Below the pieces are notes generated by a model. That model made no database searches. It saw nothing but the letters and a program-made list of their open reading frames with translations, and had not been told where the DNA came from. Below are positions 1,953-64,000 of a stretch of DNA of 64,000 nucleotides, piece after piece. The position numbers and the translations under genes are program-made. This DNA comes from Chloranthus sessilifolius (lineage: Eukaryota; Streptophyta; Magnoliopsida; Chloranthales; Chloranthaceae). Each line of letters opens with the position of its first letter. Position 1 is the stretch's first letter. The stretch is taken from assembly GCA_021018995.1 (NCBI GenBank), contig CM037588.1:36205000-36268999 (forward strand). Reading direction: 5' to 3'.

Positions 1953-2146
1953 GCTGTCGCGAGGTTCTGAAAAATAGGCATGGTTTCTTCTCGCGCAGTT
2001 CATAAGATGTTATCCTGCTAAGCTGTCACGAGATTTAATACAATTGTGTGGACTCTCTTGCGCGATCCAAATGAAAGTCCATTCTCGTGACCCACTCCTT
2101 CCCATCTAGCGAGCAGACATTTTCAAAGCACGCCAAGCCTCGCGAT
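1953..2146 (+). promoter_or_regulatory. CTCGCGAG-type motif cluster upstream of the A1 aORF
   Basis: About eight degenerate copies of a short CpG-centred motif lie within 200 bp: TGTCGCGAGG, CTCGCGCAG, GTCACGAG, CTTGCGCGAT, CTCGTGAC, CTAGCGAGC, CACGCC and CCTCGCGAT. The last touches a TATA-like box. The same motif class fills the LTRs of elements M and A3 (45700-46330 and 49150-49720), the likely relatives of this copy. A binding-site role is inferred from the clustering, the near-palindromic form and the promoter position. Confidence 0.6.
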
Positions 2147-2154
2147 ATATATAA
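2146..2154 (+). promoter_or_regulatory. TATA-like box of the A1 aORF
   Basis: TATATATAA directly follows the last CGCGAG-type site, about 280 bp before the aORF start. Pyrimidine-rich leader sequence follows (2165-2300), as expected of a plant 5' UTR. This suggests the aORF has its own promoter inside the retrotransposon. Confidence 0.45.
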
Positions 2155-2430
2155 TCCAACCTTGCATTGCTTTCCTTTTCTGTTTTCTCTTTCTTCTCCA
2201 GCAAGCGAAACCCTAGCTCTAACTCCCATTAATCTCTCTCCTCCAGCATCCATTTTACAGTCCATCATTCACCTTCTAATTCTGGGGATTTATTCCTAAA
2301 GCCTCCTCCACCAGTTGCCCCCTGCTAGGAGCTCTCGCGGTCTTTCGTGCATCAGATTAAACAGAACCCTAAGTTTTAGGGTAAGCCTCAGCTCTCAACC
2401 TTTTCTTTTCATTCACAAAGGAGAAGTTCA

Positions 2431-4776
2431 ATGGCCCCTAAGGGCGCACCTGTGAAAAGAGCAAGGGATAAGGCTCCCGTGGAGCCCACTCCCAAGAAGG
2501 CCAAGTCCTCAACGGCACCGCAAAAAGGGAAAGAAGTGGTTCAGGAAGTGGCTGAACTAACACCTGATTACTCTACACCCTCTAAGCTCCTAACTCCCAT
2601 TCCCTTGGAGCCTGAAGCTGTTTTTGACCTGTCTTTCTTTGAAACGGAACCTCTGTTAGCCCCTGCCATTAAGTTCATGCGCAAGGCTGGTTTGATCCCC
2701 CTGCTGCAAGCTATCCCTGCATTAGCCTACCCTAGACTAGTGCAACTCTTTTACCAGCACATTAGGGCTAGACCAAACCAACGTGGGCAGCCAGGCCTCC
2801 TTGTCTTAGTTGACAATTTTGAAATGTTACTCAGCCCTGAGTTGATTGCTGAAGTAATGGGCATCCCTAATATCTTTGACCCTAACTGTGGATATGGCCC
2901 CCCTGTGTGTGCCCCTATTGATACCATTGCACAGGCCCTTACCAGAGGATTGAAGGCCACAGGGGATTCCATCAGGAGAAGAGACCTGGACCCTAAACTT
3001 CTGTTCATTGATCAAGTTTTGCGAAAGAACATTTATTGTGCCGACCATCAGCAGGAGAGGAGGACCCCAATTGCTGCTGCTGTTTATTCCTTTTCTCTGG
3101 GCCACGGTTTTCATGCTGCAAGGTTAATTTTTGAAGCAATGAAGGATGTGATGGTGAAGCTAGGACAGAAAAAGAGGCCCTACACTCTCCCCTATGCAAG
3201 ACTCATTACCAAATTACTTTTGAGGGGAGGGTACACGATACCGGTGGGGGAGTTAACTATTGACCTCCCCCTTACTACTTTTGCAAAGAGGCAATGGGGG
3301 ATCAGCAGGAGTCTAATGGATCCCCAAAAGAAGAAGAAGGCCGAGGCTCAGGTTGCTTCTGAGCAAGGAGAGGGGACTGCTGTTGCAAAGGCCACCCCTG
3401 CTCCCAAAAAGGTGGCTAAAGCTCCTGCTCCCAAGAAGGTGGTGCAAGCTCCTGTCACTACTGATTCTGCAGAAATACCTCCATCCACCACACCTGTCCC
3501 TCCATCAGTTCCTTTGCCTATTCCATCTTTCCCTTTTCCTCTTTTGCCTCCCTTATCCATACCCTCACGTTTCCCTGTGATTAGTTTTGTTGAGGACATT
3601 GACCCCCATGACACCATGACACCTTCACCTACATTACCTCAGTACACACCCTCCATTCCCCCATCGTCTGAACAGAACCCTGACAGCCCTCCCCTGATAT
3701 CCTACCTAGAAAGGAAGACCACAACCTCTACCATTCCCTCACAGACACACCCTACTCTTTGTACAACCATTGCAACCATACACATTGACCCAGCCACCAT
3801 CCCAGCCATCCCTACTTCACCTCCACTCACAGACCTTGACTTTAACCTCACCACTACTTTCGGATATCAGGCCTTCATGACTACATTTCTTGACACCATG
3901 CCAACCCAGGATATCCCTCTCCCAGATTCTCCACTTCCTTCCCCACATCACTCACCAAACCCTCCAACTCCTCCTCCTACAACCTTCCATCATGCCCCTA
4001 CTTCCCCTTTCCAACCTGTTCCCTCTTTTTCTCATACTCCACCCCAACCAAACTCAGACACACTTACCCATATCCTTTCCCTAATACATGACATTCAGAC
4101 CCAACTATCAACCACAACACATACCCAAGACCAAATGCAGATTGACATCACCAACATCAAATCCAACCTTCAAACATTGATGAAAACACCAATCTCTGCA
4201 CAAACACCTCCTACCCCACAAATCCAGTCCCCTTCCACCTATGACTCCACAGTGCAACCAGATTTTCCCCTCATTGACTTAACTACAATCTTCACCCTCC
4301 AAGACACCATACCCCACCACTCCTTCCCCACTCTACCTATCCTTCCCCCACTCATATTACCTCCACCACAATTTACCAACACTTCCACCCAAATAGACCC
4401 CATTCCCTTCCCATCCTCCTTTCCCATTAACCCCCACACATTTTTAACCCCACCATTACCATTCAAACCCTTCACCATTCCATTTTACCCTTACCCAGCA
4501 CCACCCACCTTCAGTGACCCCACTTCATTTTATTTTCCACCCATGCCCTCCATTCCACCTCTCATATTACCCCCTCCTAGATTCTCTAACAACTCGATTC
4601 AAACAGACCCAGAACTTTTTGCCCAGCCCCCACATGTGAATGTCCTCCCTACCACTTTCACCCCACAGGACCAATCACCTTCTACTTCTTCCACTCCCTT
4701 TCTACCTATCCTACCCAGACATTCCTATTACACCCCTCCTTACTTCACCCTCCTCCATGCCATTGGTTTGATTTAG
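2431..4776 (+). CDS. putative plant transposon protein (aORF) of element A1
   Basis: An open frame of 781 codons from ATG 2431, the longest in the window. Residues about 1-40 are basic (KRARDK and PKKAK, nuclear-localisation-like). Residues about 75-305 form the conserved domain shared with the ORFs at 26807 and 61368: YPRLVQLFYQ, GDSIRRRDLDPKLLFIDQVL, HQQERRTPI and PYARLITKLLL. I recognise this as the family annotated 'putative plant transposon protein' (I believe PF20167); its function is unknown. Residues about 330-780 are rich in Pro, Thr and Ser with internal repeats (LILPPPQFTN and LILPPPRFSN). The A2 homologue continues into a coiled coil and a Lys-rich tail, but here homology breaks off near 4760, so the C-terminus is truncated. 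No reverse transcriptase, integrase or transposase motif is present. It could still be translated, though its element lacks pol. Confidence 0.8.
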   Translation: MAPKGAPVKRARDKAPVEPTPKKAKSSTAPQKGKEVVQEVAELTPDYSTPSKLLTPIPLEPEAVFDLSFFETEPLLAPAIKFMRKAGLIPLLQAIPALAYPRLVQLFYQHIRARPNQRGQPGLLVLVDNFEMLLSPELIAEVMGIPNIFDPNCGYGPPVCAPIDTIAQALTRGLKATGDSIRRRDLDPKLLFIDQVLRKNIYCADHQQERRTPIAAAVYSFSLGHGFHAARLIFEAMKDVMVKLGQKKRPYTLPYARLITKLLLRGGYTIPVGELTIDLPLTTFAKRQWGISRSLMDPQKKKKAEAQVASEQGEGTAVAKATPAPKKVAKAPAPKKVVQAPVTTDSAEIPPSTTPVPPSVPLPIPSFPFPLLPPLSIPSRFPVISFVEDIDPHDTMTPSPTLPQYTPSIPPSSEQNPDSPPLISYLERKTTTSTIPSQTHPTLCTTIATIHIDPATIPAIPTSPPLTDLDFNLTTTFGYQAFMTTFLDTMPTQDIPLPDSPLPSPHHSPNPPTPPPTTFHHAPTSPFQPVPSFSHTPPQPNSDTLTHILSLIHDIQTQLSTTTHTQDQMQIDITNIKSNLQTLMKTPISAQTPPTPQIQSPSTYDSTVQPDFPLIDLTTIFTLQDTIPHHSFPTLPILPPLILPPPQFTNTSTQIDPIPFPSSFPINPHTFLTPPLPFKPFTIPFYPYPAPPTFSDPTSFYFPPMPSIPPLILPPPRFSNNSIQTDPELFAQPPHVNVLPTTFTPQDQSPSTSSTPFLPILPRHSYYTPPYFTLLHAIGLI

Positions 4777-8072: not shown

Positions 8073-8395
8073 TGGTAACTATTAAGTAGTGAAAAGTACC
8101 ATTTTTTTCCTCCTAGCCTGGCCTTTGGTGGACCCTTGAGCTGACTAATAATGTGTTTTTAAGTGTATTTTATAGATAAGTAATGAATTGAAAGCTTAGT
8201 GCAGATATTCACTTAAAAGAGCCAAAGAAGCAATTTGTTGCTCAATAGGTGAGAAGGTCATGAACCCAACTGGAAATGTTTGGGACCAAGTCCAGCTACA
8301 AGGAATAAAGATTGAACCTACTAAGAGGATGCTGAGTGTTGAACAAATGAAGAATATCACACCCAAGATGTGTGCCAGCTGTGGAAGCACGAGGC

Positions 8396-9052
8396 AGAAC
8401 CTATCGAGAGGTTAAGTCTATCTGTCGAGTTGTTCTGATGCTTGAAAGCTAAGTATCGAGGGGTGCCATTAAGCTGTCATGAGGATCCAAAAGTCTTGCT
8501 CAACCTGTCGAGAGGTAATGAGTTGGAATTGTGAACATCTCGTGAGGATCCAGTTACCTATCGAGAGGTTGGAGATGCAGTTGTGGATCCTGTCGAGAGG
8601 ATACCTGGAGATGTAGGGGAAGTCGAGAGGTTCTAAGTTACATCTCGAGAGGTTCAGTTGAACCTATCGAGTAGTCAAAGACAACCTGTTGATAACTCAC
8701 CTGAAGCTAAATGATGCTCATCCTCGTCAAGTTCAGGCAACCTGTTGAAAGCTCAAACAGGAACTTCACAAAGATGTCGATAGGATTTTCTATAACCTAT
8801 TGAGAGGATGAATGTGGAACTGGACAGAGGGTGAGATTACTCTCCAATCTTGTCGACTAGTCAAGCTGAACATATCTAGAGCTAATCTAATCCTATCGAC
8901 GAGTACCACTCATCCTGTCGAGAAGACTTCAAACCTCTCGAGAAGTCTACAAAGCTGTCGACAGCCACTGCAACCTGTCGATGTGAACACAATGCAAATT
9001 CAAAACCTGTCGAGAGGATCCCTGAACCTCTCGACACTCGAACTGGCAACTT
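8396..9052 (+). promoter_or_regulatory. CCTGTCGAGAGG motif cluster in the A2 LTR
   Basis: More than 20 degenerate copies of AACCTGTCGAGAGGTTC-like words lie in about 650 bp, for example CCTATCGAGAGGTT, CCTGTCGAGAGGAT, CATCTCGAGAGGTTC and CCTCTCGAGAAG. The core is TCGA with inverted CC(T)..(A)GG arms, so sites read similarly on both strands. Many variants are TCGA to TTGA or TCAA, as expected from deamination at a methylated CpG. The cluster lies about 260 bp upstream of the LTR TATA box. The same motif recurs upstream of this element's aORF at 26007-26443. Confidence 0.75.
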
Positions 9053-9313
9053 CTCAGTTTTCTTTCTTCAGCAATCACCAATGCCAAAATTTTGTGTACG
9101 AGTTCCAAAGCACGTCAGCAACCACTGAGGGTATTTTTGGCATTCAACTGTGCATGATTGGAAACCCTAACTACCTCACGTGTACTCTCCGATTGTGAAC
9201 CAATGGGAGAAGAGTTTCAAGAAGAGAAATAAGCCACATCAATAGCCCAGAATAATAGAATTATTCTCTTGGACTCTGATTGGCTGAAATGGATCTGAGA
9301 CAGAGGGAGAAGG

Positions 9314-9322
9314 TATAAATAG
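9314..9322 (+). promoter_or_regulatory. TATA box of the A2 LTR
   Basis: TATAAATAG in a suitable sequence context (GGTATAAATAGAAGAG), followed by pyrimidine-rich sequence at 9390-9440. This is the probable genomic-RNA promoter of A2. Confidence 0.6.
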
Positions 9323-10365
9323 AAGAGAGCTTTTATAGAAGAACCATCCAGAAATTGAGAGAGCCAGACCTTAGTTCGAGATCTATTTTCCCCTCCAAAT
9401 TCTCCCTCCTTCTTCCTTCTTCTCCCATTCTCTCTTTAGTCAATCATGAGTGGCTAAAATCTTTTTAGTAGTTAGGGTGAGGTCTTGAGCTGTAAATTGA
9501 GAGATTTAGAAGCTTATAAGAGATTGTATATTACACATATTACAAATCTTGGCACAATAGTATTGTAAGCTTATAATATAATTATAGTTTTTAAAGGTGA
9601 TTCTAATCTAAATTTCACTTCTTCATATTTGATTTCCCTAGATTGGATATTCCTATGGATGCCAGCCAGAAATGGGGAGCTTGGTAGCCTGGCATCTGCA
9701 ACATCTATAAGGGTTTTCCTGTTCCAATAAAGACCAATAGTTTAGAGCAATCTCTGGGATGAACTGTATCCAGTAGAAGGACAAATCATAACCTTAAGTC
9801 GGTATCCAGTAGAAGGTCAGATCTTATCCTCAGGATTGCTTTGATCCATTGGTGGAGATTGGATTCTTATACCTCACCTCTACCGAGGGAACCTAGGTAG
9901 CTTGGAGCTAGAATAGAGGATTATTGCAAATTAGTCATCTACAATGCTTTTGATTTCTTTGATTTTCAGTAAGAGACCAAGACCCCTAGCTATTGTTCTC
10001 CATCTTTGAATTTTCATCTTTACTCTATTTTCCTCATCTCTGTGCTTGATCAGATCTGTATCACTTGCATTTATCATTTATAGTTTGTAGTAAAAGTGAC
10101 AAAACCCTAAAACCTCTCCTCTTTCCTACTTAGTTTAGTTTAAATTAGGATAGAGTGCTAGATCTACCATAGATTTAGAGATTTACTATAGTTGAACCAC
10201 ATCTCCCTGTGGACATACCCTTACTTACCACTTAAAACTTGCTACAATAGCCCTGGTTCGTGCAAGACTGGTTGCTCACCTTGATCCCATACATTTGTAA
10301 TTTGTGCCTTTTAGTTGGCTATTTTAATCATATAATAATTGCAAGGTGGTGCCCAACAAAGTTTT

Positions 10366-13565: not shown

Positions 13566-14660
13566 TCAGAAGCTGCCTGTCAAGTTGCACCAGCAGTCCA
13601 TCGACCTCTTGAGTGGATACTCTTCAGCTCCAGCAATCCCTTCAACTCAGCAGCTCAACCTGTCCGCTACAAAGAGCACCCAACCTCCCATTGAAGTTGT
13701 CGATAGCTTCAAGTTGCTGCTTTACCAAACTGCAAACCAGTCGAAGCCATTCACTCCTCATTACCTTTAGAACCTGTCTAGCTTTTTAATCCAGAAGCTC
13801 ACATACCTGTCGACTTGATAGGAGCAGCCCCAAGCTCAACCTCTCGACATGAAGTGCCTTGCAGCCTTGAACCCATCGAAATAGTTGTTGAAGCCTTGAG
13901 CTGTTGTTGAACCTGTCGAAGGCTTAAAGTGAGTGCAGCCTATACTCCATTCACCAATCCTCTCGAATGCAAACCCCCCAGTCTTTTAGCCAAACCTGTC
14001 GAGCACTCCAAGCCTTGATCTTGTCGACAGCAAGAGATTTCAGCGCTCAATTCAATCCTGTCGATAGCTTGAGGCTGCTGCAAACCAAACCTCTCAATAA
14101 GCTTCCTTTGAACCTGTCGACCATCTAGTGCACAAACCTCTCAAGATCCCAGCTGGCATCTTCAGCCAACCTCAATCCTCAAGACTAGCAGCCAAGCTTC
14201 AAACCTCCCATGCCAACCTGTCGACCATTTGAAGGCTTGAACCTCTCGACATCTTCCCTTAACTGCAATCCAAACCACTCGACTAGCACCTTCCAATCCT
14301 GTCAAGAACTCCAGGTAGCAGCCCTTCTAACCTGTCAACAACCATGTTTACATGCAGCTCCATCCTCTCGAGAAGATGCTTCAGCTAACTGCAGAACTTG
14401 TCGACAACTTGTGGCTGCACACAGTCCATCCTCTCGACATCTTCAGTTGCTCATTTAAGCTCCAATAAAACCTGTCGAACAGATTGAGCTTCAGGCTTCT
14501 TTTCCATCTTGTCGACCACTTAAAGATTTGAATCTGTCGACACATTCTCAGGCATGCATCCTCTCGACATTTGAAGTGTAGCCAACCTCTCGAGAACAAC
14601 AACTTGCACCTGCAAACCTGTCGAGATGTGCCAGGCCACCTTCACCATCCTCACGACACC
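13566..14660 (+). promoter_or_regulatory. CCTGTCGAC/CCTCTCGAC motif cluster in B 5' LTR
   Basis: More than 25 degenerate copies in 1.1 kb, for example AACCTGTCGACC, AACCTCTCGACAT, ATCCTCTCGAGAAG, AACTTGTCGACAA and AATCTGTCGACAC. It is the same core as in the A2 LTR (8396-9052), mostly in the AACCTsTCGA orientation. Spacing is irregular, often 25-45 bp. B has no aORF, so it shares the sites without the candidate protein. Confidence 0.75.
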
Positions 14661-46664: not shown

Positions 46665-46676
46665 CACCCCCAAACC
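46665..46676 (-). other. polypurine tract of M
   Basis: Minus strand GGTTTGGGGGTG, identical to the tract of element B. Confidence 0.8.
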
Positions 46677-49149: not shown

Positions 49150-49720
49150 ATCTCGCAGAGTTGAGGAGCTTCCTCATGGAGCTAAGGATGCAGTGGAAGC
49201 TGCCCTTGCACAGATAGGACACGCAGTCAAGAGGAGAGCTATAAAGAAATCATAAAGATCTCGCGTCTTAAAACCCTCAGAATTTATGCTCGCGAAGCTC
49301 TCACGAGGATTGAGCCTTAAAGAAGTCGCGCGCAGAACATAGCATATCCATATGCATAAAGAACAATTTATCACCTCGCGGAGTTCTTGTGAAGCCCTAG
49401 AAGAGAGAGACGCCCAGAAATTTCCTCATGCAGCTCTCACGCACTCTAAAGCCTAATTAGTTACTACACAAGCATAGGAGCCTACCTGCGCGAGTATCCA
49501 ATGAGAGAACTTCTGAAGCTCTATTGCGCGAGAAATCTAGGCATTCTAAATCACCTCCGCGACAGCATTGCAGTGTAAAGCAGCTGCATGATCAACTAAG
49601 AATCTATCGCGTGAGTGAACAATCCTCCTTAGCTAAATGCTCCTTCATGAAGGCTCTACCATTGCGCGAGTGAATTAATGCAGATGCCAACCCCGCAAAG
49701 CTCAGGCTCTCCACTTCGCA
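49150..49720 (+). promoter_or_regulatory. CGCGAG-type motif cluster in the A3 LTR
   Basis: About 20 degenerate sites: ATCTCGCAGAG, ATCTCGCGTC, GCTCGCGAAGCTC, CTCACGAGG, CCTCGCGGAG, CTGCGCGAG, TTGCGCGAGA, TCCGCGACAG, TATCGCGTGAG and TTGCGCGAGTG. It ends about 165 bp before the LTR TATA box. Confidence 0.7.
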
Positions 49721-49885
49721 GTTTTAACTCAAGGACCTTTTGAGAATTTCCCAAGGTTAGGACACACTTTCTGAGGCATGGATTTCGAGGCTCACATCTC
49801 AGGGCATTCAAGGGTTGTAACAGTGTAATGTCGGCTGGAAAAAATTAGGGTTAATCTCTTTTGAGCTAAGGCCTTATGGACAGAG

Positions 49886-49893
49886 TATATAAG
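49886..49893 (+). promoter_or_regulatory. TATA box of the A3 LTR
   Basis: TATATAAG, followed by pyrimidine-rich sequence (49915-49935) and TTAGGG units. Confidence 0.5.
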
Positions 49894-51521
49894 TTGTACT
49901 TAAGAGTTTAGTTTTATCATCTTTCCTTCATCCTCTGTCGGCTGAGAGCTCCAGCAGGCTAGGGTTAGGGTTTGATCATCTCTTTTTGTTATTTTTCTTC
50001 TCTCTTAGCCCAGCATTAGCTGGCTATTCCTTTTATAAGCAGTTAGGTTTAGTTTTATTTTAATTTTGTAATAGGCTTTATATATATTGGGATCTTTGCG
50101 ATGAGCAGTTGTGTACAGGCTGTAGCCTTGAGACAGTTCATTAGAAGTTTTACTTTTATTAATGGATTGTTGTTTTAATGACTAATAAAATCTACAGATC
50201 TTATGGTTTCCTTAGATGTCTATAGGATTCATGTTTTTGAGACTAGCCCATTCAGTTTCTAGTAGATCTATTATTTACCATCTGATTTCCCTTGATTTAA
50301 TAGACTCATGGATAGCAACCCAGATCTGTAGCCAGATCTAGAGAGCTCATAGCCCTAGGACTCCATGGTGCCAGCACCGGTTTACATGTTCCTTCTCAGA
50401 TCTTCGTGGTATGGACAGAGCTATCGGATATCCTATGACGATTTGAGTGGACAGAGTATAACCCTAAGGTGGTGTCCAGCCACATGTCTGAGAAGGATTC
50501 TTCACCTCTGTACATGAGCTTCTAAAGCCTTGTGAGGAGGTTTGTGCAGGAACTGGCTCCCATCTATTTTATTTGATCGATATCAGATGTTAAATCTGAT
50601 TTCTCTATACTAATTATAGCTTGAGACCGAGTCATTGCAGGCCTTTTGTAGCAATGACCAGCTGAATCTAAATCCTTATTCAACCTGTTGTTGTTCGTTT
50701 GTGTGGGCACATTGAGCAGTTGGCCTTGGCAAAGTATATAGGATTTTATGGGTTGGAATACCTATGGATGTCAGCCAGATCTGTGCGCAGATCTGGGGAG
50801 CTTGTAGTACTGGCATTACATAGTGTCTATAATAATATTCATGGCCTAATCTGGTCCATTGGTTGGGGAAATGATCAGTCCACTCCTTTGGATTAGGTTA
50901 GCATTTCTAGTTTAATCAATGGGATTTGACAGACTCTATTAGATACTCTGTGACCATTTGAGTGGACAAAATATAACCCTAAGAGCACCCCAAATGGCAT
51001 GGGTTAAATTGGATTCTTCTACCTTGTTGAGATTATTGATAGCATCTCAGCAATGACCACTACAGAGATAGTATAAATCTGAGTTACATTACTGCATTAA
51101 CTCTAGCTTAACCTTCTTACTTCCTATCATTTTTATATTTTATTTTGGCACACACTATCACCATCTTCTTCTTAACCATTTCTTTAGGATAGGGTTGCAC
51201 TTTATTTCTCTTTTGTTAGGATTAATTTAGTTTAGTCATGACACCCAACTCTCTTTTTTTAGGATTGTCAGATCTGTAGCCAGATCTAGAGGCCTACTAT
51301 TATAGTCCATTTTGGATTCTAAATCAATTTCTCAGTGGGACAAACTCTTACTTATCAAAAATTGCTACAATAGCCCTTGATCTTGCAGGCTTAAGATGTT
51401 TTAGGATTGTTGTTTTCACCATATCACTTTATCCTCTGTTTTACTTTAATTTTAATTTTCTTCCAACACCACATAATAAATCAGCACATCCTTTGACAGA
51501 CCCGAAATGACAATAAGTATT

Positions 51522-52780: not shown

Positions 52781-55336
52781 TGTAATATCTCGAAAAATTT
52801 AACGTTTAACTTTTACCTCGAGATTCATGCCCAATTATTCATAAGGTTGACCAAGTGATGGTCAAACAGTGCACTCATGGAGGGATGAACTGAAGTGGTA
52901 CGAATGTGACCTAGGTGTAGAGTATAGTGTTAAGTTACAGTCACATACACCTATCTCTAGTGTGTGCGCTTAACACCGAAACCAAAGAAGGATATAAGGG
53001 TTTAATAACCCTAGAATCCTTTTATTTGGGTTGGTGAAGGAATTAAGAAGAGAGAGAGGGAGAAAGCAAGAGGAGTTATTGAGGTAAGAGTGAATGCAAA
53101 TCAAAGGGCTGATTAGAGCATTTATTGTCGGATTCAAAGCAATTTGGGATCGTTGAAGCAAAGGCTAGAACCCTAGCCATCAAACCCAACAAAGCAATCC
53201 TTTAAAGGGATTTATTGAGGTGAGTTTTAATTAAAGTTAATGCATAGATTGTAAATGATTAAATTCGGTCAAGTAGGGTTAAAAGGATAGATTAAAGGCT
53301 TAGAAAAGAAGGGGAAAAGATTTGGAAGAACAGCGTGAAAGGGGGCTGAATCTGGCCAAATCGATTAATCAAAATTGGGATTCGATTAATCGATTTTGGC
53401 CCAGAAGTTGAAAAGTCATAGATGCCCGATTTCGATTAATCGAATTGGATTTTGATTGATCGATTTGGAAGGTCGATTAATCGATTTGGAAATCGACTAA
53501 TCGACTGGGTACCTCCAGTGGCTGGAGAAACAAGACTTGGGGAAATCGACTAATCGAGTTGGGAAATCAATTAATCAACTTTGGATTTCGATTAATCGAT
53601 TTGGGATCGACTAATCGATTTCAGACTTTCAACCACTTGATTTGAGAATCGACCCTACTATGTTGGAGATTTCGATTAATCGATTTGGGATCGATTAATC
53701 GAATTTGAATATCGATTAATCAATTTTGGGAATCAATTAATCAATTTGGACTTTGATTAATCAATTTTGGGAATCGATTAATCGAATTGTGTTTCGATTA
53801 ATCTATTTTGGGAATTGATTAATCGACTTTGGCAGTTTTACTTGACTTTATAATTTTACTTTGAGATTCATGGAGGGTCTAGGACCTTCTTCATTACATC
53901 TTTAGTGATGTATTTCATGTGTTATGATGTATCATAGGTGGTACGTGTGAAAGCGAGCACAAGGAGCAGCGTGGGACCTTGATGCTGGACCTTCAGAGAA
54001 TTGAGGTAGGGAACACCTTGAACATGTACTTTAATTGCAAGAGCATGTATGTAGCGATATATTTATCAAAATTGAAATTGTTTCAACTATTAAAAGCTTT
54101 GTGAAAATAGGTGTGTGTGACACCAAGAATGTGATAAAGGCATCTGTGTGATGTGAGTAACCAAGATCAAGTAATCTAATGAGAATGAGACATCCCCAGG
54201 GGATGAGAAAGTAATGAAGGCATCAGTGGATGCGAGTAAGTTATGCATCCCAGGGATGTATATGTGATTGAATAATTACTGTTGAGGCCTAACTGATATA
54301 AGATAGCACTTTACACGGTGAACAACTACATGTAAAGCACATGTTATTTTTGTTATTTAAGGTTTGTTTAGGATACCCCACCAACGTGGCGGGATACTCA
54401 CGACTGACGCAGCAGGATATCCATGACCGATACGGAGCGCCAATCCGTATACCAGGGCGGAGGTCTATCCGTACATAGTAAGCACATCCCAGAGATGTTG
54501 AGATGAGTTTTAACCACGCCGCCTATTGAGAAAGGGGCTTGGGTCGTATTCCCAGGAAATACATATTAACAACTGTCTATTTAGACAACGATAAAAGGTA
54601 TCTCATCGGGGCTCGATGCTATATTGCTCGGGGATTAATTAAGTTGAAGATATAAGTTTTGCTTTAGGCCTGTTCAGTGTCATTCATGATAAATCCACAA
54701 TAAAGTAAGACATACAAAATTTCAGTAAATCTTGAATGAAATTACTATCTTTTGAACTATTTTCTAGCTAATGCATAGACACATCATGCTTAGAATATCA
54801 TGGAATATATGTGAGTTTTAATTCATATGTTCATTGTGTTGTTCCCTATTGAGCTAGGATGTAGCTCACCCCTTTAGACTATACGTCGCAAGTCCTTTGT
54901 TAGCAGCAGCTGAGGCTTCGGGAGGCATAGATCCAGGTGATTCAGATTACGTGCCTAGAGATGAGTTGGAGCCTCCTCCCGAGGACTTCCTCTAGGAGAC
55001 TCCGTTGAGTACTTTGAGAGAGAGTTTTTGTGAGCGGATTGTACGGCTTGGTATGTCAAACCTTTATTTTGTCAAACAATGTAATTAGATGGATAATTCT
55101 TTTGGGCGAACCATCTGGGGTGATCAGTTTATCACCGATGGTTCAGATCGGTTCTTTGTTCATGCAGTGGCATGAAAGTAAAACTATCTTTTGTTGGTGC
55201 CAGATGGGCATGTTACTTTTTCTGTCTTATGCAATTATTTACTTTATTTATTTATCATTGCTTGTTATACTAATGTTCCGTGCATAGTTTTGGGGCACGG
55301 TCTGGAGGATCGTGCTGATGGCACGTGAGTAAATCA
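52781..55336 (+). repeat. 5' LTR of the Tekay element
   Basis: Starts TGTAATATCTCGAAAAATTT; the start is confirmed by the 3' LTR at 63170. The right end is uncertain (about 55323-55344). Contains the TCGATTAATCGA cluster 53354-53832. 53833-55336 is non-coding LTR sequence with no further feature recognised. Confidence 0.8.
53354..53832 (+). promoter_or_regulatory. TCGATTAATCGA palindrome cluster in the Tekay 5' LTR
   Basis: About 18 copies of the perfect 12-base palindrome TCGATTAATCGA or close variants (TCGACTAATCGA, TTGATTAATCGA, TCAATTAATCAA). Adjacent sites are usually separated by 7-9 bases, often TTTGGAA, TTTTGGGAA or ATTGGATT. In the run 53429-53503 the centre-to-centre distances are 20, 21 and 20 bp. 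Confidence 0.9.
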
Positions 55337-55357: not shown

Positions 55358-55439
55358 TTTCGAAATTCTACAATCATTCTCTTGCCAGAGTATAGGACTT
55401 TAATGAAAAACAGCAATACGTAACTGGGTGCAGACCGTG

Positions 55440-56817
55440 ATGTCTTCTAGAGGAAGGGGCCGACCCAGGGGCTGCCATAGTAGAAGCTTGCGTAGTCGAG
55501 ATGATTTTATCTCGGACATGAATAAGGAGCCTATAGGACATGGAGGGGCTTCTGGAAGTGGTGGCCAAGGAAGCCAAGATCAGGGAGAGAACCGAGATCG
55601 AGATCAAGATCAGAGAGAGCAGGAAAGAGTTAGAGAAAGGAATGAGGATAGAGAGGAGCGTCAAAGGATGATGCACACCATGGAGACCATGGCGGCTGCT
55701 ATGGCTCAACAGGCAGCATCTTTGGCTGCTCATACTGCCCACGACCAGCATCAGCCACCGACACCTCCAGTGGCTCCGACACCGCCAGTGTCTTCTGCTT
55801 TTATCGAGTTCAGGAGGATGAGACCTCCTAGCTTTTCAGGACAGGCAGACACTATGGTAGCTAAAAACTGGTTAAGTAAGATGGAGAAGGTGTTCAGTGT
55901 GCTCACTTGTACAGAGGACGAGAGCGTCCGTTAGGTAGCCTACATGTTAGACGGGGAGGCTGGGCCTTGGTGGAAGTCTGTTTCTAGGACTAGGGCTCTG
56001 GAGACCCCAGACATGCCTTGGGCATGGGACGAGTTCGTTGAGGAATTTAACAAGCAGTATTTCCTGGAGGTGGTGAGAAACCAGATGGAAGTCCAATTTT
56101 TGCAGTTAGTACAAGGGAAGATGACTGTGAGAGAATACGGAGTGGAGTTCATGCGACTCGCTCGCTTTGCGCCCGACTATGTCATCACAAAGATGATGAA
56201 AGCAGCAAGGTTTGAAGCCGGACGTGAGGGGAAGAGTAGCACCATTCCAACTGAGGACCTATGGTGAGGTCATGAGCAAAGCGCTCGTAGTGGAGGAAGA
56301 AAATAATAATAAATACCGCTAGAGAGAGCAATAAGGAAGGTGGAATACGGACCAGAGCAAAACGGGGAATTATGAACCAGTGAAAAAAAGTCAAGATTCA
56401 TACCAAACAACCAAAAACCACCGTTTCAAGGAGGTTATGGGAGATCAGCGTAGCAGAGCAGCCAGCAAAGATTTCCATTGCTCACGTCGGGGAGACCAAT
56501 ACGCTACAAGAGCCCTGCTATTACTATCGGAGCGACAGTTACTCAGAGGTTCTCGCGAGCAGCTTCTTCCACACCACGTGAGACTTGTGCCAAGTGTGGC
56601 AAGTCTCATAGAATAGCTGACTGTAGGCAAGGAACTCGGGGTTGCTTTCGATGTGGCAAGGTGGGCCACTTGATCAAGGAGCGCCCTGAGATGAACAAAG
56701 GGAAGACGGCTTCAGCACCTATTCCACGACCTATACAAGCTAGGAAGCCGATCGTCCAAGGAAGATCCTACGCAGCCACAGCTCAAGAGGCTCAGAATAC
56801 AAACGATGTCATTCAAG
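55440..56817 (+). pseudogene. gag: Tekay Gag
   Basis: From ATG 55440 (MSSRGRGRPRGC). An Arg/Glu-rich stretch is followed by PPSFSGQADTMVAKNWLSKM and then, past a stop at 55932, AYMLDGEAGPWWKSV and YGVEFMRLARFAPDYV, the chromovirus Retrotrans_gag region. A frameshift near 56230 is followed by poorly readable sequence. From 56478 two zinc knuckles appear: CAKCGKSHRIADC and CFRCGKVGHLIKER, the second with Arg in place of the final Cys. The frame reaches a possible intron donor at 56818; read straight through it stops at 56835. Confidence 0.85.
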
Positions 56818-56964
56818 GTGAGCTTCCTTTTAAATAAAGAATTTCAATTCTTAAAATTTTTAGATAGAGAAGGTGCATCCATATAGAAAATATAAGAAAA
56901 ACATGCATGTCATAAATTCTGGTATAATAATAAACAATATATATATATGTGTATGTATGGTTAG
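56818..56964 (+). other. possible spliceosomal intron between gag and protease
   Basis: Donor CAAG|GTGAGC and acceptor TGGTTAG|G. The 147 bases (a multiple of three) are much richer in A+T than the flanks. Removing it puts the gag frame into the protease frame (the split Gly codon is G+GT). Reading through gives a stop after six codons. It could also be a small insertion; there is no homologue here to compare. Confidence 0.5.
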
Positions 56965-57362
56965 GTGCATTGCAAATTTATAAGAAGGGAAGCGACGTGA
57001 CATACGAAGCTTGAGTGTTGATAGACCCGGGGTCTACCCACTCATTTGTTACCCCTCGCTTCACAAAGAGGATGAAAGTCGACCTAGTGGAGTTAGACTT
57101 CGTTTTAACCATGACTGTTCCTACTGGGAAAGCGGTTGATACCGAAAAGGGTTGCTACTCCGTGATCGTGAGGGTCAGGGATGGAGATGTCTTTGAGCTA
57201 CCGGCAAACCTAATTCTGTTAGACATGCAAGGATTCAACGTGATCCTTAGCATGGATTGGTTATCGACCCACTGTGCGATGGTAGATTGTAAGAATAAGG
57301 TCGTGATCTTCAGACCCAATACAAGGAGATCAATTAGGTTTTGAGGAGAGAGGTCGACACAC
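56965..57362 (+). pseudogene. pro: Tekay aspartic protease
   Basis: LQIYKKGSDVTYEA, stop at 57012, then the active site VLIDPGSTHSFVTPRF (D-P-G-S, accepted in this lineage), then DMQGFNVILSMDWLSTHCA, typical of Ty3/gypsy protease ends. A second stop lies at 57342. In frame with the upstream RT region. Confidence 0.82.
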
Positions 57363-58476
57363 ATGCCACTGATCTCAGCAGTCAGGGTCGAACACTTGAT
57401 CAGAAAAGGGTGTAATGGATACTTGGCGTTCTTGAAGGAAGATAAAGAGGAGAAGAATGTTATATTCGAGATAGCAGTTGTGCGAGACTTCGCCGATGTA
57501 TTTCCGGAGGAGTTACCTGGATTACCTCTAGAGAGAGAAGTAGAATTCGCCATCGACTTAGCACCAGGAACGGAGCCTGTTTCTAAAGCACCATATAGAA
57601 TTGCTCCTGCTGAGTTGAAGGAATTGAAAGAGTAGTTATAAGAACTAATGGACAAGGGGTTTGTTAGACCGAGCGTATCTCCATGGGGAGCACCGGTCTT
57701 ATTTGTAAAGAAGAAAGATGGGTCAATGCGTCTGTGCATTGACTATCGACAATTGAACAAACTTACCATCAAGAATCAATACCCTTTACCTAGGATAGAT
57801 GACTTGTTTGATCAACTGCAAGGAGCAAGGTACTTCTCTAAGATCGATCTGAGATCTGGATACCATCAGTTGAGAGTCAAGGCAGAGGATATTCAGAAGA
57901 CTACATTCAGGACTCGATACGGACACTATGAGTTCCTAGTGATTCTGTTTGACAAATGCCCCGGCGTCATTCATAGATCCGATGAATAGGGTGTTTAAAC
58001 CATACCTAGACTCTTGTGTCATAGTGTTTGTTGACGACATCCTAATTTATTCAAAGTCAAAGAAAGAGCATGAGAAGCACTTGAGAATAGCCCTACAGAC
58101 TCTACGTGAACACCAACTATATGCCAAGCTCAGCAAATGTGAGTTTTGGTTAGAAGAAGTTAGCTTTTTGGGACATGTTGTCTCAAAGCTTGGTGTCACT
58201 GTAGATCCAGCAAAAATCGAAGCAGTGGTGAATTGGGAGCAACCAAAGACCATGACTGACATCCGTAGTTTCCTTGGATTAGCGGGTTACTATCGGCGTT
58301 TCGTTGAGGGTTTTTCAAAAATATCAGGATCACTCACGAGACTTACACGGAAAGATGCAAGGTTTGAATGGAGTGAGGCATGCGAGAAGAGTTTTCAAGT
58401 ACTCAATAAGAGACTCACTTCAGCTCCAGTGTTAGCTATTCCTTCAGGCAGTGGAGGGTTTGCAGTGTATAGCTAA
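57363..58476 (+). pseudogene. pol: Tekay reverse transcriptase
   Basis: 57363-57635 gives VRDFADVFPEELPGLPLERE, stops at 57633 and 57639, then 57648-57945 with [20 protein letters not shown] and [18 protein letters not shown] frameshift near 57945 damages the FGLTNAPA block. In the next frame 57949-58476 the catalytic box is intact ([10 protein letters not shown]), followed by [16 protein letters not shown] and [15 protein letters not shown]. It would copy element RNA. Confidence 0.88.
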
Positions 58477-58505
58477 GTATGCTTCGTATACTTAGCTATT
58501 CCTTC
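58468..58505. other. foldback repair scar replacing part of RNase H
   Basis: AGCTAAGTAT-7 bases-ATACTTAGCT forms a hairpin (58471-58497), and TTAGCTATTCCTTCAG occurs on both sides (58433-58448 and 58492-58507). The expected segment after FAVYS with the first catalytic Asp of RNase H is absent. Confidence 0.65.
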
Positions 58506-58929
58506 AGTTGAAAGAGCATGAGAAGAATTATCTGACACATGACCTGGAATTAGTAGCGATCATTTTCGCGCTCAAGATTTGGAGACATTACTTGTACGGT
58601 GAGACGTTTGAGATTTTCACCGACCATAAGAGCCTCAGATATCTGTTTACACAGAAGGAACTGAATATGAGGTAGCGCAAATGGATGGAGTTTCTCAAGG
58701 ACTATGACTGTTCCATACAGTACCATCCAGGCAAGGCTAATCTAGTGGCCGACGCCTTGAGTCGGAAGAGTTCAACTCAATTGGCTAGTTATGATGCAAA
58801 CATTGAGTCACAAGCTGCAGGAGCCTTCTTGGCTAATATCTCAGTGAGACCGATGATATTTGAGCATATCCATGAACTACAGATGAAAGACCCGACGCTA
58901 ACTAAGATTCGTCAAGATGTAACTTAAGG
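58506..58929 (+). pseudogene. pol: Tekay RNase H
   Basis: Resumes with [20 protein letters not shown] and the [10 protein letters not shown] block, a stop at 58674 (TAG, from likely CAG), then [20 protein letters not shown] and VADALSRK, the usual C-terminal end. The N-terminal part with the first catalytic Asp is lost in the adjacent scar. Confidence 0.82.
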
Positions 58930-60094
58930 CATTGGATCTGAGTTTTTGATCAAGGAGGATGGTTCCTTATTGTTCAAGGGTTGTCTTTGCATTCCGGACA
59001 ATGCCGATCTGCGGTGAACAACTTTGGATGAATCACACAAATCAAGCTATGCTATCCACCCGGGAAGCACAAAGATGTATCAAGATTTGAAAAAGAATTA
59101 CTTGTAGAGAGGCTTGAAACAAGATGTGGCAGAGTACGTGTCACGGTGTTTGACGTGTCAGCAAGTCAAGATCGATCATAGACACCCCGCAGACTTATTG
59201 CAGCCTCTACCAATACCGAAATGGAAATGGGAATCGATCTCTATGGACTTCATCGTCGGACTACCGCGTACTATAAAGAAGTATAATGCCATTTGGATAG
59301 TGGTCGATCAATTGACCAAGTCAGCGCACTTCTTGCCTTACAACATGATGTACACGGCGGGAAGACTGACAGAGCTGCATATGAAGGAGATTGTCCGTTT
59401 GCATGGGATTCTGAGTAACATTGTTTCAGACCGTGACCCATTGTATATATCAAAGTTTTGGAAGAAATTTCAAGAAGGAATGGGAACGTGACTAGATTTC
59501 AGTATGGCATTCCATCCATAAACCGACAGACAGACTGAGAGGGTCAATCAAATCATTGAGGACATGCTTAGGGCATATATGTTAGAATTGCAAGGATCGT
59601 GGGATTAGCACCTACCTTTGATTGAGTTTGCATATAACAACAATTTTCAGACGAGCATTGGGATGGCACCATATGAAGCTCTTTACGGACGGCGATATAG
59701 ATCGCCCATCAATTGGGAAGAAATCAGGGAAAATTTTATTTTAGGACCCGAGGTACTTGAAGATAATGCAACCTATGTTCGTATGATAAGGGTCAAACTC
59801 AAAGTGACTCAGAGCAGACAGAAAAGCTACGCTGATATCAAGCGGACGAGTGTAGACTTCAAGGTGGGTGAACACGTGTTTGTGAAGGTGTCACCTATGA
59901 AGGGAGTAATGAGGTTTGGAAAGAGAGGGAAGCTAAGTCCCCGCTATCTTGGACCATTTGAAGTTTTGGGTCGAGTAGGGGAAGTTGCTTACCGCATTGG
60001 ATTGCCACCGTTATTTGATCAAGTACATAATGTGTTCTATGTATCTATGCTCAGGAAGTACCTTAACGACCCTGATCACGTATTGAGTGGTTAA
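58930..60094 (+). pseudogene. pol: Tekay integrase
   Basis: Zinc-binding HHCC region: DESHKSSYAIHPGSTKMY and CLTCQQVK (59028-59170), with stops at 59016 and 59106. DDE core: SMDFIVGLPRT (first Asp), SDRDPLYISKFW (second), then after stops at 59489 and 59519 TDRQTERVNQIIEDML with the Glu expected in VNQIIE. C-terminal IEFAYNNNFQTSIGMAPYEA and LSPRYLGPFEVLGRVGEVAY. It would insert the DNA copy. Confidence 0.88.
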
Positions 60095-60558: not shown

Positions 60559-61126
60559 AAAACCGATTAATCGATTTTGGTCGATTAGTAGACTGGCATG
60601 CGCTAGTCAATGTAAATTTGATAAGGATTCAGAAAAATGACAAAGTGAAAATTCGATTAATCGAATTGGGTTTCGATTAATTGATTTATGATTTCGATTA
60701 ATCAATCTGGGGATTCGATTAATCGAGTAACTTAAGAATTTTTGAAAATTTTGAAGAATTTTATACGATTTCGATTAATCGAAGAAGAATTTGATTAATC
60801 GATTTGGGATTTTGACTAATCGATATGGAAGATCGATTAATCGAGTCACTTGAGGAATTGGGAAAATTTGAAGAAGCCTCACGATTTCGACTAATCAAAG
60901 TAAACTTCAATTAATCTATTTTAGAATTTCGATTAATCGAAGTGAATTTCGATTAATTGACTGGCTCACACCAGTGAGCTCGAAAACTTAAAAATTAAAA
61001 TGACTACGATTTCGATTAATCAAAATGATTTCAATTAATCGATTTTGAGTTTCGATTAATCGATTTTGGAAATCGATTAATCGATTTCGTGTGGCTGAAC
61101 CTAATTTTGAAACTCGATTAATCGAA
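60559..61126 (+). promoter_or_regulatory. TCGATTAATCGA palindrome cluster upstream of the Tekay aORF
   Basis: About 19 sites, including many exact TCGATTAATCGA and one-base variants (TTGATTAATCGA, TCGATTAATTGA, TCGATTAATCAA). In 60654-60728 four consecutive sites lie 20-21 bp apart. It is the same motif as in this element's LTRs. The last site ends 8 bases before a TATA box. Confidence 0.9.
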
Positions 61127-61134
61127 CTGGAGTC

Positions 61135-61144
61135 TATATATATA
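61135..61144 (+). promoter_or_regulatory. TATA box of the Tekay aORF
   Basis: TATATATATA directly after the motif cluster, 230 bp before the aORF start, followed by a leader with a possible donor (TAAG|GTAAAA, 61294) and CCCTAG words. Suggests separate transcription of the aORF. Confidence 0.5.
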
Positions 61145-61367
61145 GTGAGGAGGATTTCACCTCATTCGAAATCATTTGAAGTTTTTCCTTGCGCGCCTTC
61201 TTCTTCTTCTCAACCGACCAAGCAGCCAGGGTTTTGGGCATTTTTGAGATGGAATTTTAATAGAAATACCGTGACATTGAATTGAATACCTAAGGTAAAA
61301 CCCTAGTTTTCGCTTCTTTTCCATTTCAAACCACATAAACCCTAGTTTTTGTGAATTTTCACCTAAA

Positions 61368-62801
61368 ATGCCACCTAAAATGCATTTGTCTTCCAAGAAG
61401 GCAACGTCTAAGCTTCTGGTCCGGCATAAGAACGCCGCACCGCCACCACCTACCCCATCACCGGTGAGGACTCCGTCACCGTCGGCATCGGATACCACAT
61501 CCGGTTCGACGAGGGCGTCTTCGCGCGAGTCTTCGCCAATGCCACCACCACCCACCAATGTACTCCAACCCAACGAATGGTGGGCGGCTAAAACTTTTGA
61601 AATCGAGTACATTATCGATGAAACCCTGTTTACAAACCTTGATGTATCGGGCGAGACCCAATGGGCTAGAAATTACCTTGTAAAGGCCGGTCTCGGCAAC
61701 ATTTTGAAACCAATCCGCGGGTCCTACTACCCTAGATTGGTCCGATTATTTTACCAAGGACTGACGGAGGGACCTACCGATGACATAGTCACGACCAAGA
61801 TAGAGGGTCGTGACTACACCTTCACTCGTCGCCACATCCACGAGGTCCTAGAGTGCCATTTGGACTTCGTACCCGAGACCACCCTCTTCCCACCCTTCGA
61901 GGAAGAGGTGAGATTTGAAGAGGTAATGACTAGAATGGCCAACGGGAAAAAGGGATCGGGAGCGTCCATTAGGAGGGTCAATCTCCCCCATTACATGTGG
62001 ATGCTTGATTCCATAATCAAGTGCAACCTATACCCGTTGCGTCACGACACCGAGCGGGTGGAAAAAGTACAGCAGGCACTCTACGCGGCCTTCTGTGGCC
62101 GTTGGTTTGATGCCACTATGGTCATCCTCGAGGGGATGAGATACATCAAGGGCAAGTTGATGAAGGGCAACTTGAGGCCCAAAGAAAAGATGCCCTATGC
62201 TCGCCTCATTTCGAGCATGCTGGAGTGTTACTCAAACGCTCTAGAATACGCCATATTTCCCTATGAGGAGAGGGCTACGGACCGCGTGAAGACCTTCTAA
62301 AATTCTTCATGGAGCCATAGCTACAATTTACTTAAGCGGACCCTACCGGCTCCGGCTCCAGCACCAGCACCAGAACCACCAGTAGCAGCAAGACCAGTAG
62401 CACCACCACCACCCCCACCACCACATCAGGACCCACTCGTGGGGGGGGCACACCCAGTTGATCCACCAGCGGAGGGGGCACCCTCCCATACCACCGCCTC
62501 GCCTACACCGCCAGCACAATCTGTGGCAGCTACACCGACTTCTTCATATCGCCGGCGAGCGACTCGTCAGGCGCCTACGATAGAGGACGTGTTGGCCAGG
62601 ATGGAGGCCAACAACGAGATGATGAACCGGTGAATGGAATTTTTGATGTACCACACTATGCGGTACATCTACCCATTGGATTACCAGCAGCGCCTCGCAC
62701 AGGAGGAGGTGTGGACTGCGGGTCCGACAGCTTTCCACTCGGGTGCCGTCTTCCATGCGGGTACCTCTATAGCCAATGCATCTGGCTCGGCACCCCAATG
62801 A
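61368..62801 (+). pseudogene. putative plant transposon protein (aORF) of the Tekay element
   Basis: ATG 61368; a single frame to TGA 62799 with only two internal stops (62298 TAA, 62631 TGA). Residues 1-30 are basic (SSKKATSKLLVRHKN), then Pro/Ser/Thr-rich. Residues about 95-300 hold the conserved domain: YPRLVRLFYQGL, GASIRRVNLPHYMWMLDSII, RHDTERVEKV and MPYARLISSMLE, collinear with the Athila copies but clearly diverged. After the first stop come Pro/Ala-rich sequence, a basic patch (SYRRRATRQAP) and IEDVLARMEANNEMMNR, probably coiled coil. It lies between chromodomain and polypurine tract. Its presence in a chromovirus as well as in Athila elements is notable. Function unknown. Confidence 0.82.
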
Positions 62802-63157
62802 CTGACCGGTGAGACGAGTCACCCACGACCCTCTGAGGGGCTGACCACCCGCTTGAGCCACCGGTCCATTAGAGCAGAACGATGGTTTCATTTTGTGATC
62901 ACTTTTTGGACCATTTTATACTGTTGTATTTAAATCCTCACGTGTAATTATCGAGAAATGAAAAAGAAACTTGTAATTGTTCAAAATTTTGACAATGAAA
63001 TACAGAACAACTTTTTGTGGATGTACTTGAATTATTTTTGTTTACTTGCACTGCGTAATGTATCCATCATCTTTTGCGTGTGTGGGTACGTGCCACCCCA
63101 GTGTGTGGGGTACCCAAGTGAGCACCTTTGAGTTATTTTCGAGGATGAAAATTCCCA
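62802..63157 (+). other. 3' non-coding region of the Tekay element
   Basis: No gene. AT-rich, leading to the polypurine tract. Confidence 0.5.
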
Positions 63158-63169
63158 AGGTGGGGAGAA
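63158..63169 (+). other. polypurine tract of the Tekay element
   Basis: AGGTGGGGAGAA immediately before the TG of the 3' LTR. Confidence 0.8.
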
Positions 63170-64000
63170 TGTAATATCCTAAAAAATTTAACGTTTAACT
63201 TTGACCTCGAGATCCATGCCCGATTAGCCATAGGGTTGAGCAAGTGATGGTCAAACAGTGCACTCATGGAGTGATGAAATGAAGTGGTGCGAATGTGACC
63301 TAAGTGTAGACTATAGTGTTAAGTTATAGTCACATACACCTATCTCTTGTGTGTGCGCTTAACACCGAAACCAAAGAAGGATATAAGGGTTTAATAACCC
63401 TAGAATCCTTTTATTTTGTTTGGTGAAGGAATTAAGAAGAGAGAGAGAGGGAGAAAGCAAGAGGAGTTATTGAGGTAGGAGTGAATGCAAATCAAAGGGT
63501 TGATTAGAGCATTTATTGTCAGATTCAAAGCGATTTGGGATCGTTGAAGCAAAGGCTGGAACCCTAGCCATCAAACCCAACAAAGCAATCCTTTAAAGGG
63601 ATTTATTGAGGTGAGTTTTAATTGAAGTTAATGCATAGATTGTAAATGATTAAATTCGGTCAAGTAGGGTTTAAAGGATAGATTAAAGGCTTAGAAAAGA
63701 AGGGGAAAAGATTTAGAAGAACAGCCCGAAAGGGAGCTGAATCTAGCCAAATCGATTAATCGAAATTGGGATTCGATTAATCGATTTTGGCCCAGAAGTT
63801 GAAAAGTCATGGATGCCCGATTTTGATTAATCAAATTAGATTTTGATTGATCGATTTGGAAGGTCGATTAATCGATTTGGAAACCGACTATTCGACTGGG
63901 TACCTCCAGTGGCTGGAGAAACAAGACTTGGGGAAATCGACTAATCGAGTTGGGAAATCGATTAATTGACTTTGGATTTTGATTAATCGATTTGGGATCG
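63170..64000 (+). repeat. 3' LTR of the Tekay element (first part)
   Basis: TGTAATATCCTAAAAAATTT onward, collinear with 52781-53607. Runs off the window inside the motif cluster. Confidence 0.92.
63750..64000 (+). promoter_or_regulatory. TCGATTAATCGA palindrome cluster in the Tekay 3' LTR (start)
   Basis: Counterpart of 53354 onward. Differences from the 5' LTR sites fall largely at CpG, for example TTGATTAATCAA where the 5' LTR has TCGATTAATCGA. Confidence 0.88.

Follow-up and report, generated by a model that had tools for sequence, protein, structure and literature searches.

The systems closest to the locus described here are the Sireviruses and the VANDAL elements. The locus is a 64-kb stretch of the 2.17-Gb genome of the plant Chloranthus sessilifolius (hereafter the window, meaning the whole stretch analysed), a nest of long terminal repeat (LTR) retrotransposons with palindromes repeated in their LTRs and upstream of their additional open reading frames (aORFs). 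Sireviruses are Ty1/copia retrotransposons with an ENV-like gene, in which dyad-symmetric, mostly CpG-bearing motifs are repeated many times over, in the LTR before the TATA box and again before the third gene, with 77 of 79 linker motif copies preceding ENV and none in the linker of four motif-bearing elements that lack ENV (PMC2829016). Their motif varies between elements, with a core half-site that is kept and a spacing that is variable, and the part of PMC2829016 drawn on here reports no phasing, no test of motif against spacer constraint and no element-encoded binder. VANDALs are DNA transposons with short motifs repeated in their own non-coding DNA, differing between related families, and with an extra protein, VANC, which carries DUF1985 and DUF287, has the non-palindromic motif YAGTATTAY and for which experiments have demonstrated motif binding and a loss of methylation, whereas the evidence presented here is drawn from sequence (Hosaka et al. 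2017, PMC5735166).

With respect to the proteins encoded by aORFs, in sunflower the 3' aORF of Athila elements contains PF20167 and is predicted to be nuclear, and the elements studied here resemble it in position and in a PF20167-like core, while the sunflower Tekay aORF lies 5' of gag-pol and has no known domain (PMC11728184; PMC7264820), unlike the Tekay aORF of the window, which is PF20167-like and lies between pol and the 3' LTR. Maize Grande gene23 likewise encodes an accessory nuclear protein of an LTR retrotransposon from its own internal promoter, but in antisense (PMC7264820). Matching palindromes are not mentioned in the consulted portions of the sunflower papers, nor is a common LTR/internal motif for gene23 in that of PMC7264820. 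The function of LTR-retrotransposon aORFs is stated there as unknown (PMC7264820, PMC11728184), and a 2026 paper that cites VANC leaves it as still to be investigated whether such ORF proteins shape the epigenetic state of their elements (PMC12844716).

An earlier reading of the same sequence (the original prediction) took the pattern to be undescribed for LTR elements with a 'putative plant transposon protein' ORF; given the Sireviruses, the view that nothing similar exists in LTR elements does not stand and the layout is not wholly new, since the Tekay, A2 and A1 families likewise repeat palindromes in their LTRs and before the third gene. The differences are that the elements here are of Ty3/gypsy type with a PF20167-like gene, and that their motifs have a TCG/CGA core (TCGATTAATCGA, TCGA, TCGCGA) instead of CGG-CCG, a core that is also lacking in Tnd-1, one of 13 Sireviruses (PMC2829016). 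In the specific case of the Tekay element, reverse transcriptase (RT; 57943-58473) precedes integrase (59108-60091), together with SH3_Tf2-1, which is the Ty3/gypsy and not the Ty1/copia order (integrase before RT); the pol regions of A1 and A2 are too broken here for this comparison. As in VANDALs, a family-specific motif is repeated in the elements' own non-coding regions, but the elements bear LTRs and remnants of gag, RT or integrase and are not Mu-like DNA transposons. We met no report of matching LTR/internal arrays in Athila or Tekay, or of phasing, in the consulted portions of the open-licence literature, and new here are the phasing, the motif-only sharing in A2, the constraint on motif relative to spacer and the purifying selection on the aORF core.

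Palindromes shared by LTRs and aORF upstream regions

Each of three families in the window, Tekay, A2 and A1, has its own palindrome repeated in the LTR and before a PF20167-like aORF. The original prediction supplied the element names Tekay, A1, A2, A3, B and M, together with the putative assignment to the Tekay and Athila lineages; domain content and order were checked here. An unbiased scan of palindromic 10-mers over the whole window (cluster threshold z≥6.5) returned 13 clusters, of which five are A/T-rich repeats of TATATATATA, TTTTTAAAAA and GTATATATAC types. Seven of the remaining eight bear CpG, each of them within an LTR or immediately before a PF20167-like aORF. The predicted family-by-family placement of CpG palindromes is borne out, with corrections to the motifs given below. 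The eighth consists of GCAGATCTGC at 16301-16801. A chance origin is rejected by the absence of clusters at this threshold in three simulated windows (order-1 Markov model) and by the genome-wide absence of reversed-control pairs.

For Tekay, the predicted places hold. Exact TCGATTAATCGA occurs 18 times in the window, always in the 5' LTR, the 3' LTR (63752-64000) or the cluster upstream of the aORF, and 45 of 47 matches with up to two mismatches fall within Tekay clusters. The Tekay aORF has 121 scored genome matches (window copy included), and among these listed matches we chose eight copies at 6 kb, all for their open aORF frames; both clusters are present in 8/8, with 17-22 internal and 14-18 LTR sites. 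The pair TCGATTAATCGA-N9-TCGATTAATCGA (21-bp spacing, ≤2 mismatches) is found at 127,837 places in the genome compared to 0 for the reversed pattern, a number that gauges abundance rather than independent evidence because the copies are related.

For A2, the predicted places (A2 LTR, upstream of the aORF, B LTRs) hold, while the predicted word CCTGTCGACAGG occurs exactly 0 times and the real motif is a longer dyad, AACCTNTCGANAGGTT. With up to three mismatches, 47 of 51 window matches of this dyad lie in four clusters (two A2, two B), those of A2 spanning 8398-9019 in the LTR and 26004-26427 upstream of the aORF, and those of the B LTRs 13694-14630 and 19994-21018. The A2 sample comprised eight search loci, including the window copy itself (L038), and two 9-kb loci. 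De novo, CTNTCGANAG-type words were recovered before the aORF in 7/8 search loci (L038 counted, L043 being the miss), and LTR clusters in both long loci.

The A1 motif is the most degenerate. The predicted CTCGCGAG has a single exact copy in the window, at 56552, and none in the A1 internal cluster, which holds CTCGCG-type sites instead and stays below the scan threshold (z≥6.5). Among 12 further copies retrieved from the 65 matches listed, 11 have a CTCGCG-type word as one of their highest-scoring palindromes before the aORF (z of about 3.5-7.1), and the top palindrome of the 3' LTR is of CCTCGCGAGG or CTTCGCGAAG type in seven of the eight copies in which the element's own linker and LTR start are preserved (L018, L019, L021, L022, L023, L024 and L029). 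Copies L020, L025 and L026 have no own 3' LTR in the stretch retrieved and are thus outside this count; L028 has the LTR-type word in a neighbouring inverted LTR.

Taken across families, motif density over 29 chosen regions forms a nearly block-diagonal table, with the Tekay and A2 motifs each confined to one family (0 to 1 stray sites outside it), apart from the presence of the A2 motif in B LTRs. LTR and internal motifs match within Tekay, A2 and A1 and differ between these families, both in the window and in the genome copies.

The claim that LTR and internal sequences are otherwise unrelated is upheld for A2 and less clear-cut for Tekay. With the motif masked, the A2 LTR and internal clusters reach a local score of 16 (shuffle mean 16.6; 201/300 shuffles as high), in a test whose power is limited by masking of 57-59% of the letters. 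The motif word alone is common to the two A2 clusters, and on this lack of residual similarity we reject that the LTR array was simply duplicated into the internal region. The Tekay spacers share wording between LTR and internal cluster (2/300 letter shuffles as high) but not order (164/300 order shuffles as high), and are thus not collinear.

Helical phasing, motif constraint and the aORF protein

The Tekay and A2 sites are helically phased, in that the distances between them are for the most part integer multiples of about 10.5 bp. Neighbouring dyads are mostly separated by 18-23, 30-34, 41-44, 50-56 or 63-65 bp, with less common steps of 27, 71-73, 78 and 96-106 bp, and all four Tekay and A2 clusters of the window are phased at a 10.5-bp period (mean resultant 0.74-0.83; P = 0.0002 in every case, the lowest value attainable with 5000 random placements). 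Internal A2 arrays are phased in 9/10 cases (window's included; P = 0.0002, jitter control), as are both extra A2 LTRs, with a mean resultant of 0.93 in the LTR of L046, a copy with an aORF 63% identical to that of the window. The A2 internal arrangement is largely shared by descent, and the copies are therefore not independent trials. Loose site calling is ruled out as the source of the phasing, which is kept at ≤2 mismatches in 7/7 arrays (best period 10.25-11.0 bp); at ≤1 mismatch, with 5-15 sites, it is seen in 5/7. LTR and internal arrays run through these steps in different orders. For A2 this points to selection on the helix face and not to a fixed tandem unit, while in Tekay, with steps mostly of 19-21 bp, repeat expansion could contribute.

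Motif letters are constrained relative to spacers. Sites were set in the window copy and divergence was counted between two other copies, with CpG positions excluded, so that sites are defined outside the compared pair and bias is avoided. In Tekay, the fraction of changed letters is 0.007-0.056 in motifs versus 0.086-0.205 in spacers in 10/10 comparisons (five copy pairs, internal and LTR; P = 6.8e-7 to 0.0013). For A2, it is 0.22 versus 0.36 in the LTR (P = 6e-4), and 0.34 versus 0.47 (P = 0.005) and 0.35 versus 0.45 (P = 0.03) in internal pairs. Overall, the rate of change in spacers is 3-12 times that in motif letters for Tekay and 1.1-1.6 times for A2, with P values that are not independent since pairs share copies and history. 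Across Tekay sites (≤3 mismatches, related copies, summed), 121 of 149 lost CpGs are now TG or CA, and the sites therefore look methylated in silent copies.

The three long ORFs of the window are the aORFs of A1, A2 and Tekay, and fragments of gag, RT, protease or integrase lie around them. The three proteins are similar among themselves (tblastn, E = 4.5e-52 to 1.9e-14) and show matches to PF20167, 'Putative plant transposon protein' (Transposase_32), that cover most of the model (E = 7e-9, 8e-4 and 1e-8) but stay below its curated cut-off. The aORF core is under purifying selection, with a ratio of nonsynonymous to synonymous substitution rates (dN/dS) of 0.06-0.30 in 11 within-family pairs; three between-family pairs are saturated. 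Regarding the parallel with VANC drawn in the original prediction, the likeness is one of proposed function and not of domain: hmmscan of 21 aORF cores from the three families (E≤10) returned PF20167 in 21/21 and DUF1985 in 0/21, and judged by its predicted domain the aORF protein is not a VANC. DUF1985 is matched above its Pfam cut-off at no fewer than 150 places in the genome, which may belong to VANC-like or other genes.

A search for homologous proteins (query P0003) gave 1626 candidates, 0 of them at E≤0.001, and no aORF relatives were confirmed in viral contigs (protein and alignment queries) or genome contigs (alignment query). The single match to a solved structure at E≤10 (E = 0.018, to a short lectin stretch) is not credible.

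Elements and further palindromes of the window

Features of the window, with motif sites called at the mismatch level given
Feature	Position	Strand	Remarks
A1 internal cluster	1953..2147	.	7 degenerate CTCGCG-type sites, unphased
TATATATAA, TATA-like	2146..2154	+	at end of A1 internal cluster, touched by last site; read from sequence
A1 aORF	2380..4776	+	798 aa stop to stop, PF20167-like core
A2 (Athila-like) LTR	8082..10349	+	aligned to the LTRs that follow the aORF in L046 and L047 (A2 copies)
A2 LTR cluster	8400..9038	.	17 CCTNTCGANAGG sites (≤2 mismatches)
TATAAATA, TATA-like	9314..9321	+	~276 bp beyond A2 LTR cluster; read from sequence
B 5' LTR cluster	13605..14628	.	15 A2-type sites, unphased
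Internal part of B	17795..19477	+	homologous to aORF-to-3'-LTR stretch of A2 copies: 80% L046, 78% L047
B 3' LTR cluster	19996..21016	.	14 A2-type sites, unphased
A2 internal cluster	26006..26447	.	16 CCTNTCGANAGG sites (≤2 mismatches), upstream of A2 aORF
A2 aORF	26804..28396	+	530 aa stop to stop, PF20167-like core
M LTR	43998..46673	-	weak CTCGCG-type sites; parts match A1-copy LTR at 68-75%
A3 LTR	48806..51479	+	weak CTCGCG-type sites
Tekay-like 5' LTR	52781..55325	+	start matches 3' LTR start at 63170; LTR pair 94.7% over 831 bp
Tekay LTR cluster	53361..53826	.	18 TCGATTAATCGA sites (≤2 mismatches), spacing mostly 19-21 bp
Tekay gag-pol remnants	55407..60091	+	zinc knuckle, RT, integrase zinc-binding, SH3_Tf2-1; frames broken
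Tekay internal cluster	60563..61125	.	19 TCGATTAATCGA sites (≤2 mismatches), upstream of aORF
TATATATATA, TATA-like	61135..61144	+	immediately 3' of Tekay internal cluster
Tekay aORF	61299..62300	+	333 aa stop to stop, PF20167-like core
Tekay 3' LTR	63170..64000	+	leaves window; 8 motif sites at 63752-63990

A TATA-like box had been predicted 0-430 bp after most clusters. By eye we find one after the Tekay internal, A1 internal and A2 LTR clusters, and see none after the A2 internal cluster. The Tekay LTR cluster is followed by a TATA-like word at 430-447 bp in three of five copies checked and not in the other two, and the TATA word before the Tekay aORF lies at -157 to -170 relative to the aORF match in 5/5 copies checked. 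The LTR of copy L030 aligns to the full Tekay 5' LTR at 89.5%.

B appears to be a short, non-autonomous A2 relative that has kept the target sites without the gene, an assignment that rests on the 78-80% linker identity, the A2 motif in both LTRs and the absence of an aORF match (tblastn with the three window aORFs, E≤10). The same linker end is seen in M, where it adjoins an A1-type LTR. The A1-type motif predicted for the M and A3 LTRs is present there in weak form (best z 5.9 and 6.1, respectively). Between gag and aORF of the window A1 (220-2380) no pol frame of at least 120 aa was seen, and this copy may be internally deleted.

Further palindromes were observed beside these elements. The CAGATCTG/GCAGATCTGC words, with 12 exact CAGATCTG in the window, cluster at 16301-16801 and in the A3 LTR at about 50100-50900, and form the sole scan cluster that is neither A/T-rich nor CpG-bearing; very dense A/T palindromes occupy 41801-42801 (TTTTTAAAAA 30 times in 500 bp). 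Next to A1 copy L022 (reversed, 9001-9800), CTACTAGTAG-type words are densely packed (as many as 9 in 600 bp) and may mark the LTR of one more family that has a palindrome of its own, and near A1 copy L029 (reversed, 8401-9600) a Tekay-type cluster with a 66-72% match to the window Tekay LTR. At G000:C1:9242274-9259505, TCGATTAATCGA pairs in clusters about 8.2 kb apart have quite different spacers (CCAAAAGTG, CATACACTG and CGCACTTAC), perhaps marking another element family that shares TCGATTAATCGA. The sole viral contig with a TCGATTAATCGA pair (L001) is by eye prokaryotic-looking and unrelated. One suggestive feature, and no more than that, is that the three cores would fit a single scheme of TCG/CGA half-sites, spaced differently in TCGATTAATCGA, TCGCGA and TCGA; in most Sirevirus motifs the half-sites are CGG/CCG, with several spacings (PMC2829016).

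A candidate self-recognition factor and its rivals

Dyads that match between LTR and internal region, are conserved and, in two families, are phased are as expected for the binding sites of one factor at both promoters. To this extent the self-recognising factor of the original prediction fits the motif match, the phasing and the motif constraint. The aORF product is the simplest candidate for the binder, since it is a conserved protein with an array in its own upstream region and would explain why the motif depends on the family. We lean, with some reserve, towards an aORF product that binds its family palindrome as a dimer at its own two promoters and activates or un-silences the element in a VANC-like manner.

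Under this model, the PF20167-like aORF of each family would give rise to a nuclear protein, the dimeric state being suggested by the dyads, that recognises arrays placed in the LTR upstream of the promoter for full-length RNA and again upstream of the aORF promoter, which these arrays may control. Because the Tekay and A2 dyads stand mostly at whole helical turns, bound dimers would be aligned on one face of the DNA and could cooperate. The protein would thereby control its own gene and the element, most likely by activating or by removing silencing marks and less likely by repressing, a ranking made because VANC, the nearest experimental case, works in this way. Non-autonomous relatives such as B could use the factor in trans through the same LTR palindromes.

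Several observations weigh against this model. Phasing is significant in none of the 12 A1 internal arrays, in neither of the two B LTR clusters (P = 0.76 and 0.45) and not in the internal array of A2 copy L043 (10 sites). The internal clusters of L046 and L047 fall below z 7 de novo (13 and 11 sites by motif count), A1 copy L028 lacks the internal word, and L027 keeps its own 3' LTR yet has no cluster there that reaches the threshold. The A2 clusters also contain A1-type words, at up to 10 per kb (L047 internal), because the A1 and A2 motifs are similar, and only three families could be paired, so that cross-family matching has n = 3. With respect to constraint, the less diverged A2 internal pair shows no difference (motif 0.105 versus spacer 0.111, P = 0.48), and the CpG letters excluded from the test have changed within Tekay motifs too (3/54 to 10/44). 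The Tekay spacers share TTTGGGA-like wording, and part of the 21-bp regularity may be repeat expansion. Finally, the PF20167 scores of the window aORFs (36.2, 19.8 and 35.7 bits) are below the curated cut-off of 45, and the name of the domain conveys no tested function.

Among the alternatives, the one that survives best, although we regard it as unlikely, is that host transcription factors bind the palindromes, with a family-specific host factor at the LTR and the same sites placed before the aORF for co-expression. Sirevirus motifs matched mainly stress-factor sites, and Bousios et al. favoured stress factors, but they could not identify a single common one (PMC2829016). Host factors are also difficult to reconcile with two Athila-like families of one genome having different motifs, with some 13-20 repetitions of the Tekay or A2 motif in helical phase and with 127,837 TCGATTAATCGA pairs, which would be a very large sink for a host factor. 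That the aORF protein instead acts at its own two promoters as a repressor, limiting copy number or timing expression, strikes us as improbable. The architecture would fit an autorepressor with phased operators equally well; the families look very abundant, however (50,145 to 73,176 first-look aORF candidates, which are not confirmed copies), and the arrays lie upstream of the TATA boxes seen and not over them, the last A1 site touching its TATA.

A somewhat poorer case can be made for tandem repeats that arose by slippage or by LTR/internal copying and were kept alike by concerted evolution with no factor involved. The near-tandem 21-bp pattern of Tekay and its common spacer wording would agree with such an origin, and VANDAL target motifs are likewise tandem repeats. 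A2, on the other hand, mixes 21-, 32- and 53-bp steps between dissimilar spacers with no residual LTR-internal similarity, and conservation of motif over spacer is not expected from slippage or block copying. Least credible, and very improbable in our view, is that the palindromes act as DNA or RNA, through hairpins or by patterning nucleosomes or methylation, or are targets of gag or integrase instead of the aORF product: every motif does contain a CpG and lost Tekay CpGs are mainly TG or CA, but placement before the aORF, family-specific words and phasing would not be required for such roles.

Returning to the aORF product as binder, a wider and more tentative reading is that in the separate lineages of Athila, Tekay and, by analogy, Sireviruses the third gene may encode a sequence-specific self-recognition factor that binds often-phased arrays of family-specific CpG palindromes at the LTR and at its own promoter, acts against silencing and co-evolves with the motif. 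What the aORF proteins of plant LTR retrotransposons do is treated as an open question in the consulted parts of PMC7264820 and PMC11728184, and the constrained arrays, phased in two families, give each of these proteins a predicted DNA target, while suggesting that the unexplained Sirevirus motifs, too, may have a binder encoded by the element. If the proposal is true, there would be a common function for the 'putative plant transposon protein' and perhaps for ENV-like genes, parasitism by short non-autonomous relatives would be explained, and what has been demonstrated to date in VANDAL DNA transposons, sequence-specific self-activation or anti-silencing, would apply also to the retrotransposons that account for much of large plant genomes.

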